Assembly: GCA_024102635.1 (NCBI GenBank)
Contig: JAGFJO010000122.1
Coordinates: 1 to 64,000 of the forward strand
Length of the DNA stretch: 64,000 bases
Direction of reading: 5' to 3'
Origin: Deltaproteobacteria bacterium
Lineage (GTDB): Bacteria; Bdellovibrionota_C; UBA2361; JAGFJO01
A model generated the notes under the pieces. That model saw only the letters and a program-made list of their open reading frames with translations, did not search any database and had not been told where the DNA came from. A program made the translations under genes and the position numbers. This document shows, piece by piece, positions 29,080 through 60,091 of this stretch. Numbering within the stretch: the first letter of the stretch is position 1; every line of letters starts with the position of its first letter.

Positions 29080-29496
29080 TTAGGGCTTAGGGGTGCTAAG
29101 GCCGAGAATCTGCGCGACATGCTCGCTCTCTTCATCGGGCGCCCAGATGTAACAACCGAAATCGTCTTCGACAGCAATTGCGTCAACAGCTTTCAGGTTT
29201 ATCTTCTCTTTTGATATCTTATTCAGAATGTCCACCAATGCGCCGGTTTTGTCCGCCCCTTCAAGATGGAAACAGATCCCCTCGGTCATATTCCATTGTT
29301 GCCGCTGCGCGAGCTCTTTAAAGTCCTGTGGATGCCTTGGGACTACTACTATCTCCGCCCCCTCACTGCCGGTGCCGAAGCCCCAGATTCCGGAACAGTC
29401 AACGCCAGCCGACATAAGCGAAGCCGTTATTGACGACAACTCGCCCGGACGGTTATGGCCCTGAATGGAGAAGTATCTCTCTTTTCTAATTCTCAT
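29080..29496 (-). CDS. Double ACT-domain protein
   Basis: 138 residues consisting of two ACT-type ligand-binding domains and little else. The first starts YFSIQGHNRPGELSSITASL, with the Gly-Glu and following helix typical of ACT; the second starts CFHLEGADKTGALVDILNKI. ACT pairs bind amino acids and control enzymes, so this is probably a small regulatory protein, but the ligand and target are unknown. The ATG has an AGGA site upstream. It is divergent from the tandem HAD gene across 161 bp, which must contain both promoters. Confidence 0.82.
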   Translation of the reverse strand: MRIRKERYFSIQGHNRPGELSSITASLMSAGVDCSGIWGFGTGSEGAEIVVVPRHPQDFKELAQRQQWNMTEGICFHLEGADKTGALVDILNKISKEKINLKAVDAIAVEDDFGCYIWAPDEESEHVAQILGLSTPKP

Positions 29497-29657: not shown

Positions 29658-32282
29658 ATGGCGAGCGGACCTACCCCCGATTCCTCTGAAATGGAGAAGA
29701 TTCTTGGCGCGCGCAACGGCGTGGCACGCGGCGAGGTCAGATTAATAGAAGAGAAAGTAAGAGATCTACTAACCTCCGGCGCCAGGGCGCTAAAACATCT
29801 CGACAATCCGGTGCTCAAGGCGGAGTTTGCGGTTCTGGTTCTAGACAAGATCGCTCAGCAGCTCGGCGACAAGATTCCGCCGCAGGCGTTCGCCAAGTTA
29901 TGGGGCACCGAGAAATTTCGTGACGGAGTGGCTGAACCGGTGCTTGCGTTCAAGGAGGCCTTCTCGCTGCATGCCGAAGTGCTGCAAGGTTTTCGGGAAA
30001 CCGAACCCGAGTTTGCGTTTCAATATCTTCTATATAAGGGCCTCTTCTTCGGCCGCCTTCCGCTTCTAACCAGTGATCTAAAAGACACACTTTCCACCTT
30101 TGTACATTCCAAAAGATACGACACACTCACGCCTAAGGAAAAGCGTGATGCCGCGGGGTTTCGTGGGGTACGCGAAGCGATCGAAACGGCGCTTAAATTG
30201 GGTCCCGTATTCATCGTGACAGGAGACACTCATGACACCGTTGTGGAACAATTTCTACTTCCAAACGAGTGGATCGTGAAGGATGGGGAGCTGCTTCGCC
30301 CTACGTCGGCATCTAAGCAGAACCTTGTCTGGCTGCCTCGTACCGGGATGGAGATGGTTTGCTATGACGGTGAGCATAGAGCGTTCGTTCGAAAGCCGAT
30401 GGTTGAAGGCATTAAGTCCGAAGAGTTGCCTGTACTGCGGGAGCTGCTAGAGACAACCTTCCATGAACTTGAAATCGCAGAGCACTTCGCCGATCCGCAG
30501 CGCCGGTATGCGTATAAGCCGAGCAAAAAACCGGGGAGTATCGAGGAACGTCCCGGAGAGGAAGGGGATAAGGATTATTCAATAGCATTCTTTCCCGCCG
30601 GAGTGCTCGAAACAGCCGCACGCGAAGAATTCAAAAAGGACCCAAAGAATGCAGCGTTGCTTGAAGTGGCGGTTTGCCACCTAAATGGCGAACTCGCTAC
30701 CCTCGGCTTGGAACATATCATAGTAAAACGCGGCGGCCTATCGACGATTGACCTTGTAACCTCCGACAAAGGGGTGGCGCTTGAACTTATAAAGCGTGAT
30801 TTTGCTAAGAATAATGAGCTATTGGTTTTCATCGGAGACCGCATCGCCCTCCACGGAAATGACGTCGAAGCGATCTCCGTTGCAGATGTTTCAATTCAGG
30901 TGGGGATTGAGTGGGACTCGCATCTTTTCCCTCCCGGCAACCGCATGTTGCTCCGTTCAAAGCGCCTTGCATCTGAGGGAGGGTCTGCTGAATTTATTTC
31001 GGCGCTTTCGCGCGTCAGGCGGCTTGGATTGACAGAGCTGCTTGCTCCCCCGCCAGTCGAAGCCACCGCAACGCAGCCGAGCCAGACTGCACTGATTGAA
31101 GCCTCTTTGCCTGTCTCGCTGGAACGTGAAAAGGGGCTTTTTGAGAACGCTGTCCGGCTTGCGGATCAACTACTCACTGCGTCACAAGATGAAAGAGCCG
31201 CCATTGGCGCCGAGTTAAAGACCTCGTTGGAAAGGCTCGACTCCAGCCATCCAGCTCTCCAGGAAAGCGCCTTCGCCCAGCTAGAGATCCTTCTTTTGAA
31301 ACGAGCGGTAAAGGGGGAAGTTCCGGTAATCGCCACCGACATCAAAGATACCCTCGCCCATTTCGACTGCCGTGGATTCGAATGGTTCCCCGAAGTGAGA
31401 GAAACATTTGGAGAGGCGTTGCGAGACGGAAAGACCTTTTTGCTGACGGGAGATAGCCTTCATAATCTTCGCGACCGATTCCTATTGCCTGCAGGAATTA
31501 TTGATCGCAGTGACTCGCACTTTAGATCTGAGTTTCCCGGAATTCATAATCTCTATTTGGTCACACGCACCGGGTTGGACCTAGTGAACTTCAATTTCTC
31601 AAAAGGTGAACTTGAAAGGTTCCCTCTTATCTCCGGTATAGCACAGCGCGATGTGGCCGCGATCACTGATCTGCTGCACAGGACCACCGAGGAATATCTG
31701 TGCGCCCGAATATTTGAGGAGTTTAGGCACGAGGCCGACCGCCCACCCGGATACATTGACATTCGAGGACAGGAGTATGGAAAGGATGCCGTGTCCTTTT
31801 CGTTCTTTCCTGCCGGCGTATTACTAAAGGAAGAGCGTGAAAAGTTCCGCAAGGAGATGATGGGGAACCACGTGTACCGCGCTATGATAGGATTCATCCG
31901 TCAGGAGCTATACGATCTGGGTCTTGAACAAGTCCTCGCTCAGCACGGCGGGATCTCAACCATAGACCTTACTACTACCACTAAAGGAACTGCCCTAGCT
32001 CAGCTGCGGAGAGACCTATTAGGTCCGAGGGAGTATTTTATTTACGTAGGCGACACAGTCACACAGAGCGGGAACGACGGCAGCACCATCGGAGTGGCGG
32101 ATATAACAGTGCAGGTGGGGACCGAGCAAGACACTTCGCTCTCGCCCCCTCCCGGGCACTTTCACATACATGCGCCGCTCAATGCTAATAATGGAGGAAC
32201 CGCCGCCGCAATTAATCTTGCTACAAGAGCCCGCAAAATCGCCTTGATGAACATATGGAACGGAACCTCTCTTCCTCAGTAA
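29658..32282 (+). CDS. Tandem HAD-superfamily protein with altered motif I
   Basis: 874 residues made of two homologous halves, each a HAD fold of the cap-IIB type. First half: motif I SDLKDTL (nucleophile Asp140), motif II VTGD (Thr188), motif III DKGVALELIKRD (Lys371), motif IV FIGDRIALHGNDVEA. Second half: TDIKDTL (Asp561), LTGD (Thr597), TKGTALAQLRRD (Lys776), YVGDTVTQSGNDGST. Both share the block FFPAGVL before motif III. The usual motif I is DxDGT; here both halves read DxKDT, so the general acid/base Asp at +2 is Lys. The family is phosphatase or phosphoglycomutase-like, but this substitution leaves the reaction open. No signal peptide. A P-loop NTPase gene overlaps its 3' end by 28 bp. 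Confidence 0.78.
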   Translation: MASGPTPDSSEMEKILGARNGVARGEVRLIEEKVRDLLTSGARALKHLDNPVLKAEFAVLVLDKIAQQLGDKIPPQAFAKLWGTEKFRDGVAEPVLAFKEAFSLHAEVLQGFRETEPEFAFQYLLYKGLFFGRLPLLTSDLKDTLSTFVHSKRYDTLTPKEKRDAAGFRGVREAIETALKLGPVFIVTGDTHDTVVEQFLLPNEWIVKDGELLRPTSASKQNLVWLPRTGMEMVCYDGEHRAFVRKPMVEGIKSEELPVLRELLETTFHELEIAEHFADPQRRYAYKPSKKPGSIEERPGEEGDKDYSIAFFPAGVLETAAREEFKKDPKNAALLEVAVCHLNGELATLGLEHIIVKRGGLSTIDLVTSDKGVALELIKRDFAKNNELLVFIGDRIALHGNDVEAISVADVSIQVGIEWDSHLFPPGNRMLLRSKRLASEGGSAEFISALSRVRRLGLTELLAPPPVEATATQPSQTALIEASLPVSLEREKGLFENAVRLADQLLTASQDERAAIGAELKTSLERLDSSHPALQESAFAQLEILLLKRAVKGEVPVIATDIKDTLAHFDCRGFEWFPEVRETFGEALRDGKTFLLTGDSLHNLRDRFLLPAGIIDRSDSHFRSEFPGIHNLYLVTRTGLDLVNFNFSKGELERFPLISGIAQRDVAAITDLLHRTTEEYLCARIFEEFRHEADRPPGYIDIRGQEYGKDAVSFSFFPAGVLLKEEREKFRKEMMGNHVYRAMIGFIRQELYDLGLEQVLAQHGGISTIDLTTTTKGTALAQLRRDLLGPREYFIYVGDTVTQSGNDGSTIGVADITVQVGTEQDTSLSPPPGHFHIHAPLNANNGGTAAAINLATRARKIALMNIWNGTSLPQ

Positions 32283-32974
32283 ATAATTCCGGCCCTGACA
32301 TACAAGGCGATCTGCTACGGCAGGAGCCTCTTCCATATCTGGAGAGGCTCTCACTAAGGCCTTGGGAAGGCGCCAATGCTTTAATGCGTCTTTCTGTACC
32401 GCCCCGCCTAATGCCTGGATATTGCCCGGTCATTACGAACTGGGTCGTCCTGACAGGTGCGACCTGCGCTGGAAAAACAACCACCATAAAGGCCCTTGAA
32501 GCAGCGGGATTCAATGTGGTTCATGAGGTAGCGCGTTCATTTGTAGAGCAAGAGATTAAGCAAGGGCGCTCCGTGCGGGAGATTCGAGCTGATGATCATT
32601 GGTATCGGCAAAAAGTATTCTCTCTCACTCTTGAAGAGGAACTTAACCTAATGCCGCGCGCCTCTGAGCTTATATTCTTTGATCGTTCTGCCGCAGATAG
32701 CTTAGCTTTCCACCGCGGCTCAGGTTACGACCCGCATGAGATTCTGCAGCAGCTCCAGCCCTACCGCTACGCCCATATCTTCCATCTTAACCCCCTGCCG
32801 TTTGTTTCCGACGGCTTAAGAACTGCAAATGAGCCGAGGCGGCAGTTTCTAGATGCAGCAATGGAGCGCGATTACCGGGCACTCGGCTATCAACCCATCC
32901 GCGTTCCGTACCTGACAGTGCAGCAAAGAATAGATTTTATTCTCGAAAGAGCCGGCTACAATCACATTCACTAA
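32255..32974 (+). CDS. P-loop NTPase of the AAA_28/predicted-kinase type
   Basis: 239 residues. The P-loop is VVLTGATCAGKTTTIKALE (about 66-84). Next comes FNVVHEVARSFVEQE, then LIFFDRSAADSLAFHR, the Walker B/DRS pattern of AAA_28 proteins and related small-molecule kinases. An Arg-rich segment (ANEPRRQFLDAAMERDYRAL) may be the lid. It probably phosphorylates a small molecule, or is a nucleotide-dependent switch; substrate unknown. The ATG at 32255 lies inside the end of the HAD gene (28-bp overlap), arguing for one operon. Later in-frame ATGs at 32384 and 32411 would also keep the P-loop, so the first 40-50 residues are uncertain. Confidence 0.75.
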   Translation: MERNLSSSVNNSGPDIQGDLLRQEPLPYLERLSLRPWEGANALMRLSVPPRLMPGYCPVITNWVVLTGATCAGKTTTIKALEAAGFNVVHEVARSFVEQEIKQGRSVREIRADDHWYRQKVFSLTLEEELNLMPRASELIFFDRSAADSLAFHRGSGYDPHEILQQLQPYRYAHIFHLNPLPFVSDGLRTANEPRRQFLDAAMERDYRALGYQPIRVPYLTVQQRIDFILERAGYNHIH

Positions 32975-51274: not shown

Positions 51275-54200
51275 CTATCCCATCACTACCTGAACACGTG
51301 CGTCTAGCCGGCCTGCGAGAGCGCCAAGCTCGATTTTTCCGCACTCGATTCTCCTTCCGTCAAGCAGCAGTTCCTTGACGCCCCTCTCAACACCTGCCGG
51401 ATTCTCCACCTTTATGGTGAATTTAATGCCGCGCAAAACAGCATCTATCTTATACTCTCTCCATGACTTCGGAATGCACGGATCGATGATCAGCTGCTCA
51501 TCAATGAGCTTGAGACCGAGAATGTAATGCAAGCCCGCTTGATACATCCACCCGGCGGAGCCTGAATACCAGCTCCAGCCCGCTCGCCCTTCATGCGGAG
51601 GCGCCGCATAAACGTCCCCGCAAAATACGTAAGGCTCGCCCTTATAAACTTCCACCCCGCTCTCACTATTGGTGTGATTTATAGGATTAATGAGGTTAAA
51701 AAGATGATGAGCTTTGCCGCCATAGCCGAGAAGCGCACTAGCAATTATCGTCCATGAAGCCGCGTGAGTGTACTGGCCTCCGTTCTCGCGAATTCCGGGA
51801 AGGTAGCCCTTTATATAACCGGGATGAAGAGAGCCTTTATTGAAGGGCGGATCCAGCAGCTTAATCAACCCGTGCTCCTCATCAACCAACTTCTCGTATA
51901 CCGCACCCATGGCCTGCACAGCACGTTCTGGTTCCGCGCTGTGACTTATGACACCCCAACTCTGAGAAAGCGAATCGATACTGCATTCATCATTCTGCTT
52001 GGAGCCCAGCGGCGTACCGTCGTCAAAATATGCGCGCCGGTACCATTCTCCATCCCAAGCATGTTCTTCAATAGTAGCACTGAGACGCTCAATTTCGCCG
52101 CGAAACTTTGCGCTCGATTCAGCGTCATCACGCTTTTCTGTCAATGGGGCAAAGAGCTTTAGCACCTCAATAAGAAACCATCCAAGCCACACACTCTCAC
52201 CCTTGCCGCCCTTCCCGACTTCATTCATCCCGTCATTCCAATCTCCACCGCCCATCAGCGGCAATCCGTGACTACCGAAGTTAAAGGCTCGCTGAATGGC
52301 GAGCAGGCAATGCTTATATAGCGGCTCTGTAGTATTAGCCTGCTGCGGCACCATGTAAGTCTCCATCTCATGCTCTGCAAGCAAAGAGCCGGTAATAAAT
52401 CCGATCTGTTCATCAAGAATTCCGATATCCCCTGTCGCCTGAATGTAGCGAGCAGTAACGTAAGGCAGCCAGAGGTAGTTATCTGTAATTCTCGTTCTTA
52501 TTCCTTTGCCGCTAGGTGGATGCCACCAATGCTGCACGTCTCCTTCCGGGAACTGCCTGGATGCGTGCAGCAGAATCTGTTTGCGTACGAGTTCAGGGCG
52601 AATGAGCAACACCGAAAGCACGTCCTGCAGCTGATCACGAAACCCGTATGCTCCGCCACTTTGATAAAAGCCCGTGCGCGCAAACAGCCGGCATACTATA
52701 CTTTGATAGATCAGCCATCCATTCAGCATAATGTCCAGGCTTCGGTCCGGGGTGTGAACGGAGATCTTGGAAGTTAAGGAAGCTATTTCGCTTGTCGCTT
52801 CCACCATATCAACAGTATAGCTCTGAGAGTCTACCCCGCCCGAAATTACTTCCCGCACAGCATCTAATGAATCCGCGGCGGCCATATAGAAAAGCAGCTC
52901 CTTCTTTTCTTGCGGTCTCAAACTAATCACGCACTTTATTACTCCGCAGCTGTCGAATCCGCCGCCTATATGTTTTTCAAGCGCAGCGCGTTCGAGTCCG
53001 GCAGGAATTGAAAGATCTCGGTTGCGGCCCACGAACTCTCTGCGGCTGGCGGTGTAGGTTAAAATCTCCTGATTGCTGCCGATGGCGCAGATCCGTCCGG
53101 GAAAATCCATATTGTAAAAATTCTGCGCGTATAGAAAATTATGCTTGGCATCAAAAGAAGATACCAAAAATCGAGTTGTCTCCTCGCGCTGCACCCCCAG
53201 CACCCAGTCGGCATAAAAATACAGCTCTAAAATTTTGGGAAGGCGGGTGGTGTTCTCGACCACCAATTGGAACCACTTCAACTTCCGGCTGGCCGCCATT
53301 GCTACCGTCAAACTGCTATGGATTCCCTCTATCTCGGTCTCGAAAACGCTCTTCCCTAGGTGATGATCCACCTGATAAACCGCTCCCGAATTAACCGGCC
53401 GCGGCGTCGGGCACCAATACTTGCCGCTCTCCTGGTCTTTTATATATATCACCTCCGATAAAGGGTCGCTTATAGGGTCGTTACTCCAAGCTGTAAGCCG
53501 CATCTCTCGCGAGTTCTCGGCCCAACTGTAACCCCCTCCGCTCTCTGTGACCAAGAATCCGGCCTCCGGATTAGCCACGACATTGCTCCACGGCATCGGG
53601 GGAAACTTCTCACCATCTACGAACGTGCGGTAAGCTTTACCATCCTCAATAAAACCGCCAAAGCCATTGAAAAACTCGCACTTAGCGGCTCCCTTGAGGA
53701 GCTGGCGGGAGTTTATTGTGTTGAGCTCATTCTCCGGCATCTGCAGCGGCTTCTCGATTAGCTCCTCGAATCTTAGCTGCGAAGCCAGGCTGCCCTTCGA
53801 TCCGCTAAGCACCACCCTGGAGACAACCTGCAGCAACTCATGCTCCTGCTGAGATACCTGCTGCGAGGTGCGCAGAAAAACTCCTCCGTTTTTATCCATC
53901 AAATATCCCGAGAAGCTGGAACGGATCATAAACTCCAGCTCCTCCTGAAGGTTCTGCAAATATCCTCCCGGATATTCATTTAGAATAACCAGATCGAATA
54001 TTAACCCTCGAATTCTAAGATAGTGATGCGCGGCCAGTAGTTCCTGCACCACTTTGCCTTGCTCCGGCTCCGTTATCCTCAAGAGAACTATTGGGAGATC
54101 CCCGGAGATGCCCAGCCGCCAAAGTGCCGATTGCACAAGCCTATTGTGAATAATCAGTTCGGGCTGACTTCTAAATTTCTGTACGTTGAATAGAAAGATA

Positions 54201-57200
54201 TTTGCAAGCCTTTGGAAAACCTGCGACTGCCGAGCGGCTATGCGCTCGTTTCTCAGTTCCACGCTACTCTGGCTCCATGCCATCTCAAACGCGCGTGAAA
54301 TTTGATGAATCTGTTTGTAGCGGTGCGCAACCGACAGCAGCGCCTCTTTATCGCGAGCCGCGCCGGTTATGAAACTGACCGTTTCGGCGTGCCCCGGCTC
54401 GAGCTCGATAACTGTTCTTATCGAAAACACAGGATCAAGCACATAGCCGATTGTTCCGATAAGCTTCTTTCCGGGCTGCATGGCCGCGGGCTCGTGAATC
54501 GTCCTGGCGCGCCCGATGAATTCCGCTCTTGATGTCTCGTACTGAAGCTTCCGCCATACCGTGCGCATGGTTATCATGTGCATCAGATAAATCGGCGGCT
54601 CGTGAAGGGAGCGAGGCCTCCTCGAAAACAGTAAACAGTCCAGGTCCTCGACGAACTGACTCTCAATAAACATTTTAGAGAATGCCGGATGCGCCGCATC
54701 TGCGCGAGCACTGTTAAGGACCACTTCGGCAAAACTGGTAATTTCAAGAATACGCCGGCGCCCCGAAAGATTGGTAAAGGACAGCTTGCGTATCTCGACA
54801 TTATCCTCGGGCGACACAGTCACTTCGCAATGTGTGAATATGTCGTGGTCTTTGCGCTTGAATTCAATCTTGTCCGGCGAATAAATAACCTCGTAGACTT
54901 CCGGCTCGGCCCTAGTAGGCTGATAAGTGACTGACCACTGCTGCCCGCTTTCCAAATCCCTTACGAAGAAGTACGTACCCTGATCGTTTATGATGCTGTC
55001 TTCGCGCCAACGTGTAAGCATTACGTCGCGCTCGAACAAGCTATAGCCGCTTCCCGCATTATCGATCATCAATGCATAGTGAACGTTTGAGAGCAGATGG
55101 CTGACCGGAATGGTGGTATGAGGCGTAAAGATAGTGTGACTAAGCTCGACTGTCTCTTCCTGCTCCTCACGGGCGCTCGAGAATAGCTGATCACTTGGAG
55201 AGACGGTGATCGGTAGTCTATCCGGGAATCTCTCATGAAGCAGCAGCTCGGTCGCCTTGACCTGCGGATCCGAGTGGAACCTCTCCTGCATGATATTGCC
55301 GTTCAATAGGTTATTGAGCATCACCACTATCATTCCCTGATGATGCGCTAGATGTGACTGAACTACATGGCTGACTTCATTATTGCTAAGACGGCTGGGA
55401 GTGTAATCAACCGCTTCATAAAATCCGTATTCTCCTCGAGCACCTTCCTGCTCAAGCACGCGCAAATTCTGCATTCCTTCGGCAAAGGCTATCGGCAAAG
55501 CCAGCACAGTCGAATAAGGTGAAATCACCAGATCATCTTCCAGCCCCCGTTTCAATCCCAGACCAGGCACGCCGAAGGCGTGGTACTGGTAAGTTTTCTC
55601 GAAATCGACTCCACTGTAACCGGACTCCGATATGCCCCATGGAAGTCCGCGTCTCTGGGTATACAAGATCTGTGTACGCACAGCCGCCTTGTAGCTCTCA
55701 TCGAGAAGTGTGCCTTTGAAGCTCTTCATAACAAGCAGCGGCATTAGGTACTCGAACATCGTCCCGCTCCACGAGAGCAAAGCCTTCCCTCCCAATGCGT
55801 CAGTTAGCGGCCTTCCAAGCGAGAACCAATGATGCTGCGGCACCTGCCCCAGCGCTATGGCGGCGAAGCTGCCAAGGCGCGCTTCCGACGCCAACAAATC
55901 GTAGTAGCTGTGGTCCCGTCTGGCATTGTCCACGTCATAGCCAATCGGAAAAACGTCCCGGTCGTGGTCATAAAGGAAGCGGAAATCCATCGTGTCGATG
56001 ATATTGCTGCAGTCGGAAATTAGGGAGCGCAGCTTGGAGGTCACATTTTCTATTGCGGCGGTAGCCTGCTCAATCGAATAGCGAAGGTTCTCCGCGAAGG
56101 CTGGTTCAAGGGCAGCGCTGTGACCGATCTCGGTCAGCATGCGGCCCGACAAATCACACAAGGACTTCAGATCCTTAAGCGACGGGCGCTGCCGATTCAT
56201 CAGCTCTTGTACACTTCGCGCCGTATCGCCGGCGCCCTCGGACGCGTTTTCAGCATGAAGCAGCAACTGCGAGATCAGTCCGATATCCGGAAGAGTAGAC
56301 GCCATACCGGAAAGGTCCGCGGCATATAGCATGCTCTGTTTGATGTGCTCTCCATATTTAGCCGAGACGGGATCGATGGAGCGCAGCAGGTCATTTAACG
56401 GCTTCCACGCCCGGTACAATTGCGCAGCGCTTAAATCGGCGGAGGTCAGGTTTCTTAGCGCTTCCTCAATTCGGCCGGCGATATCAGGCGTAAAAGATTC
56501 CTTGAATACCAATGCCTGATTTAAAAGTTTATTTAGATGGCGAATCTGGCGGTCGGAGAAAATACTCTTCTGCAGAAACTCGTGATAGGCCGCCCGGCAA
56601 GCCATCAGATGTCCCAACATGTTGCCGCTATCTACCATCGAGATGTAACGCGGATTAAGCGGTGCGAGAGTGTGGACGTTGTACCAGTTAAGAAAGTGTC
56701 CGTGAAACCGATCGAGCTTTTTGAGAGAGGCAAAAGCCTTTTCAGTCAGGTCAACTGCATTTGGCAGTGCCATATATCCCAAGTCATAGGCCGAGATTAC
56801 CGATAGCAGTGAAAGACTAATATTAGTAACGGATGTGCGATCGACAACGTGACGATGCGGAACGAATTGAACATTGTCGGGAGCGAGGTAATTATTCTCC
56901 TCGGTCATTAAATCGCGGAAGTATCTCCAGCTTGCAAATGCCAAATCATTCAGATAGACATGCTCCTCCGCCTTAATCTCGAAGCCGACCGATGGGAGCG
57001 GGTCGCTTAGCCACTTAGCCATTATCGGCGAAAAGAGCCAGAGTGCTACCAGAGGCGCCGCAACCTTCAATCCGGCCGTTCCAGCTAGAGCTGCCAGGGC
57101 CAGCACTACTCCGGTAACCATGACGCCGCTGCGCATCTCTTTGAAGTTGGCGGCCAAAGTGTTCCCCAGCCGTATATCGGAGTGATAGGCGGTCTCCCAC

Positions 57201-60091
57201 TCAAGCATATTTCTGCGGCTCACAAAGAGCCGCCAAAGTGTGATCGAGATCGCATCAAGCATCAAGGCGGCTTGGTGGGGGAGGAATGAAATGGTAAAAA
57301 GCGCCTGCTTGGACATATTCATTATGTCCCTCCCTACCCCTTTAACATGTCCTTCCATGGAGAGATTTCTCGGTGGAATGAGAAATGCTTGCGCAAGGTT
57401 GGCATACACCGGAAAGGCCACTACCACTGCGAGCAGCATTAGCAGATACAAAGATGGCTCGCCAAAGATAAAAAGATTTAAAACGAATAGCCCCATAAGG
57501 CTCGGCGCCAGTAAGCTGCGTCGCAGATTGTCAATCAGCTTCCAGCGAGCAAGACTGGAAAGAGGAGTGCGATAGGATTTCCTTTGTCCATTGGGGACGC
57601 GGTGAAAAATCCATGGCAGAAGCTGCCAGTCGCCCCGAACCCAGCGGTGCTGGCGGCGCGCGTGCACGTGATACTTGGAGGGAAAATCATCGAATAGCTC
57701 GATGTCCGTCGCCAGCGCCACCTTGGCAAAAAGACCCTCAAAAAGGTCGTGGCTTAAAATCGCGTTCTCCGGCACCCTCTCGGCGAGTGCGCTTTCGAAA
57801 GCGCGCACATGGTAGATGCCTTTACCAACAAACGAGCCCTCGCGAAAAAGATCTTGATACACTTCCGAAACCGTTTGAGTGTAGGGGTCAAGTCCCGCGT
57901 GCCCCGAAAATATCCGGGCGAATCGCGAGGAGTTTGCGCTGACAAGTGTAATTCCGACCCTAGGCTGTATAACTGAGTACCCCTCCAGCACCGGGTGCTC
58001 CGCAAGACCTTCATTGGCCCGGTTGAGCATTGGAGCGTTCAATGGATGGGCGATAACTCCTACTAAACTTCGCGCAGAGCCGCGAGGAAGCTGAGAGTCA
58101 TTGTCGAGTGTAATCACGTATTCAACATTGCGAAGCAGTTCCCGCTCCCTGGCCTTCAAGTAAAAACTAGTCTCTCCTTTGTTTAGAAGCAGCCTGTTGA
58201 ATTCCTCTATCTTTCCGCGCTTTCTCTCCCATCCCATAAATTTACGCTGTGACTCATTCCACTGCCTGCGGCGGAAAAGAATGAAGAACTTATCGGAACC
58301 ATGCCTGCGCCTAAGCTCCTCGATCATCGCTTCAGCATGTTCCTGGATGATCTTATCGGAAGGCATTTGAGCCTGATCGGCATCGGAAAAATCGGCTAGT
58401 ATTCCGAAGATCAATTGCTTATCGTCATTGGCCAGATATCGTACTTCCAAACTCTCTACCGCTTTGGTAACGCTGACACGATCTGTGAAGAGGGCCTGCA
58501 CAGCCACTACGGTTCTGTGGCCCGCAGGTATGCCCTTTGAAAAATCGAGTTTGGGAAGAAAATCCGGCGCTACAAGTCTAGTTACCAGCCATTGCACCAA
58601 ATTAATGGCAAGATCACTTGCAGGAACGGCGAACAGCAGGCCAACAGCAATAGCAGCCAAGCGGCTGGCACCGCTCTCCAAGCTGTACGCGACTGCGTGA
58701 AAAACGGCGAGCGAAGTAAGCACAACCACTGCCAACCCGTAAAAGAGGAAGGCATTTCTATGCAACCATCTCCCTGCCCTAACGGTGAACTTAGGAGTTA
58801 CACCTAATGAGCTCTCTAGGTCCTGGACGCCCGGCCCTATGAGATAGAAACCGATATGTGTGCGCTTCAACAAAAACAGCGGCTCTATCGAATCATCGCG
58901 CAGAAGCTGCTCGTGCCGCGTCTTTGCAAGCGAGACAACTGCATTCGCTACATCGATTTCCGGTATGTTAGAGCGCTTTGCTATACGTTCCACCACATGG
59001 CGGTACCGGTCGCGAGTTTTGAAATCGCATTTATGATGCAGACCGGATGGATCCCGCTTAAGGACCTGCTCTACCGAACTGACTGACTCAAACCACTCCT
59101 TCCAGTCTATTAAACTGATGGCCCGTAGAGAGTTTACTGTATTACCTATCGAAACTTGATCTGCCGCCAATAAATACTGCTCATTGCGGTGCATCTCTTC
59201 CGGATCGAGCCCCTCCTCCCGAAGACGCTCTTCCAGCCATTGCAAGGCCAGGTAGGCTCTGCGTCCCATCTCCCTAAGCCGCCCTATAATATGGGACGAT
59301 CCACGGAAAAGAAGTTCTGGCCGGCCAGCTATGCTCGTGGTTAAAGCCTGCAACACTTGCGTCGCGGTTCTCGAATCGTCGCCGATAATTTCGTCAATCA
59401 ACAATCCGGCCGCTTTGCGCTCCTCCTTAGCGGCCGACATGCGGGCCACTATGGTGCCGAGATTCTCGATCAGCGCGAACCGTAGCATGATCGGCACGGC
59501 CCAGATCTCACCCATGGTAAGCACGGCGTGAGATTGATAGCCCCTCACAAACGACGTCAAAAGATCGAGGTTCACCACCGAATCGCTTTGAATCAGCAGT
59601 TCGAGCGCCAAATGATAGACGCGTGGATTGCCGGCGTACTTGCCGTTCACCAGTTTCGGCAGCGAGCGGTCATAGCCTCGCGGGAAATGCCTCTTGATGT
59701 CTGTAATCTGTTGTAGGACAAGATGGTAATTGTCCAGCAGCCATTCAGCGCCCGGGGTTAGGACTTCATTATCCTTCGCTGCCTCCTGGAGCGAATTGTG
59801 GGCATCTTCGAGCTGGACGCAATGCTCCCTGAAGCGGCTATAAAGCAACCTACTACCACGTCCCAAAATCTTCGATTCATGCTGTTCCGCAAGTCTCTTA
59901 GCATGCTCAAAGAGCGCGTCACGGGTCAGGACCTGCGAACGGGATAGCTGCTCGCGCTGCTTCTCGATGACTTCACCTTTCTTCTCCAGCAGCAACGGCC
60001 ACCTGAACACCCCGGTCAAAATGCGCCACGCCGGACGCAGCTCCCTTAAGAAAAGCTTTTTCCTAACCCTATAGACCCTTAACCAGCTCAT
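51275..60091 (-). CDS. Cyclic beta-1,2-glucan synthase (NdvB/ChvB type)
   Basis: 2938 residues, the longest gene here; it makes cyclic beta-1,2-glucan and exports or modifies it at the inner membrane. Order: an N-terminal region of about 400 residues, membrane helices near 430-500, then a GT84 glycosyltransferase with ITLDNDSQLPRG (about 664) and RRQHRWVRGDWQLLPW (about 817). More membrane helices lie near 885-1010, followed by a glycoamylase-like region. The C-terminal GH94 phosphorylase-type domain has GGGDWNDGMNEVG (about 2617). Length is close to ChvB/NdvB proteins. The glucan stabilises the periplasm under low osmolarity. The ATG is in an A/T-rich 5' flank, 82 bp from the kup stop. Confidence 0.93.
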   Translation of the reverse strand: MSWLRVYRVRKKLFLRELRPAWRILTGVFRWPLLLEKKGEVIEKQREQLSRSQVLTRDALFEHAKRLAEQHESKILGRGSRLLYSRFREHCVQLEDAHNSLQEAAKDNEVLTPGAEWLLDNYHLVLQQITDIKRHFPRGYDRSLPKLVNGKYAGNPRVYHLALELLIQSDSVVNLDLLTSFVRGYQSHAVLTMGEIWAVPIMLRFALIENLGTIVARMSAAKEERKAAGLLIDEIIGDDSRTATQVLQALTTSIAGRPELLFRGSSHIIGRLREMGRRAYLALQWLEERLREEGLDPEEMHRNEQYLLAADQVSIGNTVNSLRAISLIDWKEWFESVSSVEQVLKRDPSGLHHKCDFKTRDRYRHVVERIAKRSNIPEIDVANAVVSLAKTRHEQLLRDDSIEPLFLLKRTHIGFYLIGPGVQDLESSLGVTPKFTVRAGRWLHRNAFLFYGLAVVVLTSLAVFHAVAYSLESGASRLAAIAVGLLFAVPASDLAINLVQWLVTRLVAPDFLPKLDFSKGIPAGHRTVVAVQALFTDRVSVTKAVESLEVRYLANDDKQLIFGILADFSDADQAQMPSDKIIQEHAEAMIEELRRRHGSDKFFILFRRRQWNESQRKFMGWERKRGKIEEFNRLLLNKGETSFYLKARERELLRNVEYVITLDNDSQLPRGSARSLVGVIAHPLNAPMLNRANEGLAEHPVLEGYSVIQPRVGITLVSANSSRFARIFSGHAGLDPYTQTVSEVYQDLFREGSFVGKGIYHVRAFESALAERVPENAILSHDLFEGLFAKVALATDIELFDDFPSKYHVHARRQHRWVRGDWQLLPWIFHRVPNGQRKSYRTPLSSLARWKLIDNLRRSLLAPSLMGLFVLNLFIFGEPSLYLLMLLAVVVAFPVYANLAQAFLIPPRNLSMEGHVKGVGRDIMNMSKQALFTISFLPHQAALMLDAISITLWRLFVSRRNMLEWETAYHSDIRLGNTLAANFKEMRSGVMVTGVVLALAALAGTAGLKVAAPLVALWLFSPIMAKWLSDPLPSVGFEIKAEEHVYLNDLAFASWRYFRDLMTEENNYLAPDNVQFVPHRHVVDRTSVTNISLSLLSVISAYDLGYMALPNAVDLTEKAFASLKKLDRFHGHFLNWYNVHTLAPLNPRYISMVDSGNMLGHLMACRAAYHEFLQKSIFSDRQIRHLNKLLNQALVFKESFTPDIAGRIEEALRNLTSADLSAAQLYRAWKPLNDLLRSIDPVSAKYGEHIKQSMLYAADLSGMASTLPDIGLISQLLLHAENASEGAGDTARSVQELMNRQRPSLKDLKSLCDLSGRMLTEIGHSAALEPAFAENLRYSIEQATAAIENVTSKLRSLISDCSNIIDTMDFRFLYDHDRDVFPIGYDVDNARRDHSYYDLLASEARLGSFAAIALGQVPQHHWFSLGRPLTDALGGKALLSWSGTMFEYLMPLLVMKSFKGTLLDESYKAAVRTQILYTQRRGLPWGISESGYSGVDFEKTYQYHAFGVPGLGLKRGLEDDLVISPYSTVLALPIAFAEGMQNLRVLEQEGARGEYGFYEAVDYTPSRLSNNEVSHVVQSHLAHHQGMIVVMLNNLLNGNIMQERFHSDPQVKATELLLHERFPDRLPITVSPSDQLFSSAREEQEETVELSHTIFTPHTTIPVSHLLSNVHYALMIDNAGSGYSLFERDVMLTRWREDSIINDQGTYFFVRDLESGQQWSVTYQPTRAEPEVYEVIYSPDKIEFKRKDHDIFTHCEVTVSPEDNVEIRKLSFTNLSGRRRILEITSFAEVVLNSARADAAHPAFSKMFIESQFVEDLDCLLFSRRPRSLHEPPIYLMHMITMRTVWRKLQYETSRAEFIGRARTIHEPAAMQPGKKLIGTIGYVLDPVFSIRTVIELEPGHAETVSFITGAARDKEALLSVAHRYKQIHQISRAFEMAWSQSSVELRNERIAARQSQVFQRLANIFLFNVQKFRSQPELIIHNRLVQSALWRLGISGDLPIVLLRITEPEQGKVVQELLAAHHYLRIRGLIFDLVILNEYPGGYLQNLQEELEFMIRSSFSGYLMDKNGGVFLRTSQQVSQQEHELLQVVSRVVLSGSKGSLASQLRFEELIEKPLQMPENELNTINSRQLLKGAAKCEFFNGFGGFIEDGKAYRTFVDGEKFPPMPWSNVVANPEAGFLVTESGGGYSWAENSREMRLTAWSNDPISDPLSEVIYIKDQESGKYWCPTPRPVNSGAVYQVDHHLGKSVFETEIEGIHSSLTVAMAASRKLKWFQLVVENTTRLPKILELYFYADWVLGVQREETTRFLVSSFDAKHNFLYAQNFYNMDFPGRICAIGSNQEILTYTASRREFVGRNRDLSIPAGLERAALEKHIGGGFDSCGVIKCVISLRPQEKKELLFYMAAADSLDAVREVISGGVDSQSYTVDMVEATSEIASLTSKISVHTPDRSLDIMLNGWLIYQSIVCRLFARTGFYQSGGAYGFRDQLQDVLSVLLIRPELVRKQILLHASRQFPEGDVQHWWHPPSGKGIRTRITDNYLWLPYVTARYIQATGDIGILDEQIGFITGSLLAEHEMETYMVPQQANTTEPLYKHCLLAIQRAFNFGSHGLPLMGGGDWNDGMNEVGKGGKGESVWLGWFLIEVLKLFAPLTEKRDDAESSAKFRGEIERLSATIEEHAWDGEWYRRAYFDDGTPLGSKQNDECSIDSLSQSWGVISHSAEPERAVQAMGAVYEKLVDEEHGLIKLLDPPFNKGSLHPGYIKGYLPGIRENGGQYTHAASWTIIASALLGYGGKAHHLFNLINPINHTNSESGVEVYKGEPYVFCGDVYAAPPHEGRAGWSWYSGSAGWMYQAGLHYILGLKLIDEQLIIDPCIPKSWREYKIDAVLRGIKFTIKVENPAGVERGVKELLLDGRRIECGKIELGALAGRLDARVQVVMG

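Follow-up and report, generated by a model that had tools for sequence, protein, structure and literature searches.

What sets HAD phosphatases apart from branches of different chemistry is the second Asp of HAD motif I, at position +2. In the window analyzed here, a stretch of 64,000 nucleotides, one gene encodes two HAD domains in tandem that both carry Lys at this position, and the question is what kind of protein results. The gene starts with ATG and is translated into 874 amino acids (aa), with a helical stretch ahead of each HAD domain and 30% identity between the two domains over 393 ungapped columns. This value is taken from an alignment of four halves, two from this protein and two from its homologue, which is used throughout. 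The features are as follows.

29658..32282, + strand: whole gene, tandem HAD-IIB protein (open reading frame (ORF); homologue of equal layout, 45% identical over 868 aa)
29658..30050, + strand: residues 1-131, N-terminal helical region before domain 1 (helices in a low-confidence full-length model; partly conserved in the homologue)
30075..30092, + strand: domain 1 motif I, DLKDTL (140-145), preceded by S, with the Lys142 codon at 30081-30083 (aligned with PMM DVDGTL)
30216..30227, + strand: domain 1 motif II, VTGD (187-190) (T188, G189 and D190 invariant in the four halves)
30549..30623, + strand: domain 1 cap arginines R298 and R322 (aligned with PMM2 R123 and R141)
30732..30773, + strand: domain 1 GGLSTIDLVTSDKG (359-372), substrate strand and motif III Lys371 (four-half and PMM alignments)
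30834..30863, + strand: domain 1 motif IV, GDRIALHGND (393-402) (spacing equal to PMM GDKTMPGGND)
31071..31313, + strand: residues 472-552, linker and helical region before domain 2 (helices in the half-2 model)
31338..31355, + strand: domain 2 motif I, DIKDTL (561-566), preceded by T, with the Lys563 codon at 31344-31346 (translation, alignments)
31443..31454, + strand: domain 2 motif II, LTGD (596-599) (four-half alignment)
31764..31838, + strand: domain 2 cap arginines R703 and R727 (aligned with PMM2 R123 and R141)
31947..31988, + strand: domain 2 GGISTIDLTTTTKG (764-777), substrate strand and motif III Lys776 (four-half and profile alignments)
32049..32078, + strand: domain 2 motif IV, GDTVTQSGND (798-807) (four-half alignment)

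The first-pass annotation had read motif I as DxKDTL in both halves (SDLKDTL with Asp140/Lys142 and TDIKDTL with Asp561/Lys563) and had placed all four HAD motifs in each. The translation confirmed the former, and motif II, motif III (K371, K776) and motif IV were located in both halves, the four motifs standing in the right order on a Rossmann-like core, as in the HAD superfamily. Alignment with PMM and ISN1 places D140/D561 at the nucleophile, K142/K563 opposite the second Asp and D143/D564 at +3; this register is anchored by the strand ahead of motif I together with Thr at +4 and Leu at +5. Lys thus occupies the acid/base position, as the annotation had assumed, and a register shift that would make the next Asp (D143/D564) the true +2 residue is ruled out by the same alignments. 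The second Asp of the phosphatase/mutase branch is replaced by Lys in all four domains.

A sequence search among 97 related genomes gave one homologue, 45% identical over 868 aa and sharing the tandem layout, on contig CAIXSY010000324.1 of the MAG uncultured delta proteobacterium isolate LJ_bin-2050 (same order, different family). Its motif I is DLKDTL in both halves. Identity between the two proteins is 51% for the first halves and 42% for the second, whereas first and second halves share 28-32%; since matching halves are more alike, the duplication predates the split of the two proteins. Beyond LJ_bin-2050, profile and pattern searches over overlapping sets of 383, 384, 336 and 342 genomes (one set without a positive control) turned up no further member, nor did viral contigs, phages and plasmids, and species-level genome contigs returned LJ_bin-2050 only. 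A weak profile match (E 0.001) was a bacterial phosphomannomutase, L011. This protein (L011:1381-2211, - strand; PF03332, 62.6 bits) belongs to a family that is rare in the genomes searched, and the ORF beside it resembles nicotinate-nucleotide adenylyltransferase. Residues 355-404 (motifs III-IV) also match weakly (E 2e-4) phrog_29277, a phage family of unknown function that is perhaps an unrecognized phage HAD.

Lys is found at +2 in 4/4 halves from two proteins and two genomes, at 28-51% identity between halves. Nine catalytic positions were picked from prior HAD knowledge (half-1 numbering: D140, K142, T144, T188, K371, G393, D394, N401, D402), and all nine are invariant in the four domains, as against 22% of the core columns (hypergeometric P 6e-7). 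Codons differ at 253 of the 388 residues identical between the two proteins, including Lys142, encoded by AAA in one protein and by AAG in the other; at fourfold sites the difference reaches 67%, which is near saturation, so this conservation is not due to shared recency. Among ordinary HAD-IIB comparators, the 30 PF08282 matches from the 97 genomes, +2 was Asp in every case. Judged by these alignments, the DxK motif is no chance event, as the homologue carries DLKDTL twice and the comparators have Asp in 30/30, and selection on Lys at +2 is well supported by the four domains in two genomes. The first-pass annotation had argued for selection rather than decay and had asked whether DxKDT is conserved in homologues. 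The former argument is borne out by the divergence of the four domains, the near-saturated synonymous sites and the nine invariant positions; as to the latter, the motif is conserved in both halves of the sole homologue found, and Lys does not vary in the four domains. Decay of the HAD domains is unlikely given the invariance of all motifs in the four domains. The proposal of a non-phosphatase or specialized activity seems reasonable as a hypothesis, though the proteins come from two genomes only and ISN1 +2 mutants, which lose IMP hydrolysis, hydrolyze pNPP faster (PMC7320144).

As to the subclass, Pfam gave only a sub-threshold Hydrolase match, and NCBIfam HAD-SF-IIB (TIGR01484) matched over the whole protein at E 2.5e-8, under its curated cut-off. 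AlphaFold2 on half 2 with the four-half alignment gave mean pLDDT 78.7 and pTM 0.75; the full-length model was of low confidence (mean pLDDT 47) and was excluded from active-site claims. The best PDB match of the half-2 fold was the IMP-specific 5'-nucleotidase ISN1 (E 4e-9, TM mostly 0.4-0.5). Behind it ranked PMM-like phosphoglucomutase and PMM, with TM by target up to 0.68, as well as trehalose-6-phosphate phosphatase, and all of these belong to class C2b. In accordance with that, the secondary structure of the half-2 model and the fold matches place an alpha/beta cap between motifs II and III. Both domains are thus predicted to be PMM/ISN1-like HADs of class C2b, a subclass absent from the first-pass annotation.

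The nearest family was eukaryotic-type phosphomannomutase (PMM) by profile, and ISN1 and PMM by predicted fold. The profile match to PMM (hhalign prob 78, E 1.7e-5) spans the cap to motif IV; there was no Pfam match to PMM PF03332 even at E<=10, and no PF03332 protein in the host genome at E<=0.1. For ISN1 (PF06437) there was no Pfam match, and hhalign gave prob 0.2; the yeast ISN1 sequence used as probe is identical to PDB 8j6h over residues 4-450. Like PMM1 and PMM2, the tandem protein is a C2b HAD with the motif IV spacing GDxxxxxGND, a GGxxSxD/GGxSTxD strand and FxPxG...ER matching SPIGR...ER. In the joint alignment, T363/T768 fall on PMM2 S179, D365/D770 on D181, R322/R727 on R141 and R298/R703 near R123, both arginines being invariant. 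R134 and R141 of PMM2 hold the outer phosphate of glucose 1,6-bisphosphate, and mutations at R123 are classed with those of the active site (PMC4263888, PMC12042452). Two of these three cap arginines are kept in the tandem protein, while the phosphate ligand R134 is replaced by Val/Lys. The PMM2-like cap arginines make a small, anionic and phosphorylated molecule the probable ligand. Unlike PMM, the protein has DxK instead of DxD, RTG for ENG, a motif III loop shorter by two residues, and a tandem layout with helical N-terminal regions. With ISN1 it shares a helical region before the HAD core, a D-N-D motif IV and N-L before the cap strand, but it differs in motif I and in being tandem, and lacks both QF after GD and the Trp that stacks on the IMP base, two positions ahead of the substrate-strand Asp, where Thr (T363/T768) was read by eye from the motifs.

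We tentatively favor, at somewhat short of an even chance, a reading in which the tandem protein serves to bind a phosphorylated ligand or carries a long-lived phosphoaspartate, with little ordinary hydrolysis. A PMM/ISN1-like domain, duplicated within one chain long ago, would have given rise to a rare two-domain C2b protein, each domain of which, judged by its residues, retains the Mg2+ and phosphate pocket together with cap arginines suited to such a ligand. Lys at +2 would substitute for the general acid/base Asp, its ammonium perhaps holding the bound phosphate or the leaving group; ordinary phosphomonoester hydrolysis would most likely be lost or strongly slowed, and the role would be that of a phospho-ligand binder or sensor, or of a domain whose phosphoaspartate turns over slowly and is long-lived. 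By analogy with the oligomers of PMM and ISN1, the two domains probably pair as a pseudo-dimer.

The closest precedent is PfISN1, in which D170, the first Asp, accepts the phosphate and the +2 residue, D172, offers its main-chain carbonyl to Mg2+ (PMC7320144). Neither D172N nor D172A hydrolyzes IMP, although D172N binds it with a Kd(app) of 4.5 µM; pNPP activity of the +2 mutants rises 15-91 times, D172N reaching 91 times wild type (PMC7320144). A pocket that has lost its +2 Asp can thus still bind ligand and act on good leaving groups but no longer turns over its natural ester, from which we infer a phospho-ligand binder with little hydrolysis. Like D172N, the tandem protein lacks the +2 Asp and keeps the nucleophile and Mg2+ site, but D172N is a laboratory mutant with Asn, not Lys.

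Counting against a binder, the retained catalytic residues suit a working enzyme equally well, the conservation comes from four domains in two genomes, and the phosphate ligand R134 of PMM2 has no counterpart. Retention of the nucleophile cannot separate binder from enzyme, since the same residue also serves as a Mg2+ ligand. An active C2b enzyme (phosphatase, nucleotidase or sugar-phosphate phosphotransferase) whose +2 Lys ammonium protonates the leaving group is possible, if doubtful. The other catalytic residues and the cap arginines are kept in four domains, it is specifically Lys and no random residue that is retained at +2, and ISN1 +2 mutants keep, and even gain, pNPPase activity (PMC7320144); a +2 substitution need not abolish phosphoryl transfer, and some may persist in the tandem protein. 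Against this, a protonated Lys beside Mg2+ and the motif III Lys would make a poor base for phosphoaspartate hydrolysis, and Lys at +2 occurred in 0/30 comparators and was not found in the literature searched. That the Lys took over an acid/base or electrophilic role, making a new HAD catalytic variant with two cooperating domains per chain, is rather unlikely. Schiff-base chemistry, in which the +2 Lys would attack a phosphonate or sugar phosphate at its carbonyl like the cap Lys of phosphonatase, is very improbable. In HADs the +2 residue reaches close to the leaving group with its side chain, and phosphonatase itself has no Asp at +2, but phosphonatase has a C1 cap that carries its Schiff-base Lys, whereas the half-2 model and fold matches gave a C2b cap, phosphonate genes were absent among the scanned neighbors and the gene context is not conserved.

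Two further readings fit the conservation less well. HAD pseudoenzymes are known, for example PcrP/PA2803, a natural, catalytically dead HAD with altered catalytic residues (PMC12632274), but a purely structural scaffold that binds no phosphate is improbable, as none of the residues serving as nucleophile, metal ligand or phosphate ligand varies among the four domains. PcrP is a C1 protein with a truncated cap and has lost essentially all motif residues (PMC12632274), while the tandem protein has lost one. That Lys at +2 merely drifted into an otherwise ordinary HAD hydrolase and is tolerated there, with no special function, is still more improbable: the motif is known from two genomes only, and the main-chain carbonyl through which ISN1 +2 touches Mg2+ (PMC7320144) can be supplied by Lys, but all four halves, which are 28-51% identical, have retained Lys. 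A natural Lys in duplicated, otherwise intact domains amounts to a clean natural experiment, which would reveal either a one-charge-reversal route from HAD to phospho-ligand receptor or a way for Lys to stand in for the acid/base, and both can be addressed in one protein with two matched sites.

The genomic surroundings gave no functional clue, as no gene context was conserved between the two loci compared. Upstream and divergent from the HAD gene lies a small ACT-like protein (29080-29496, - strand), just under the Pfam cut-off, and downstream on the same strand an AAA_28 NTPase (32255-32974, + strand; E 3.5e-31), whose ORF, read from its first ATG, overlaps the HAD ORF; a later start near 32411 looks likelier. 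A subtilase gene is also among the neighbors, and none scanned was a phosphonate gene. Near the homologue the neighbors differ and include an iron-sulphur assembly-like protein (by eye). PADLOC gave no match to the tandem HAD protein that would link it to a defense system. The host genome has one other HAD-IIB match above the cut-off (C15:8537-9157). Elsewhere in the window, a 2938-aa ORF (51275-60091, - strand) with Glycoamylase, two GH94 supersandwich and GH94 catalytic matches looks like an NdvB-like cyclic beta-1,2-glucan synthase.
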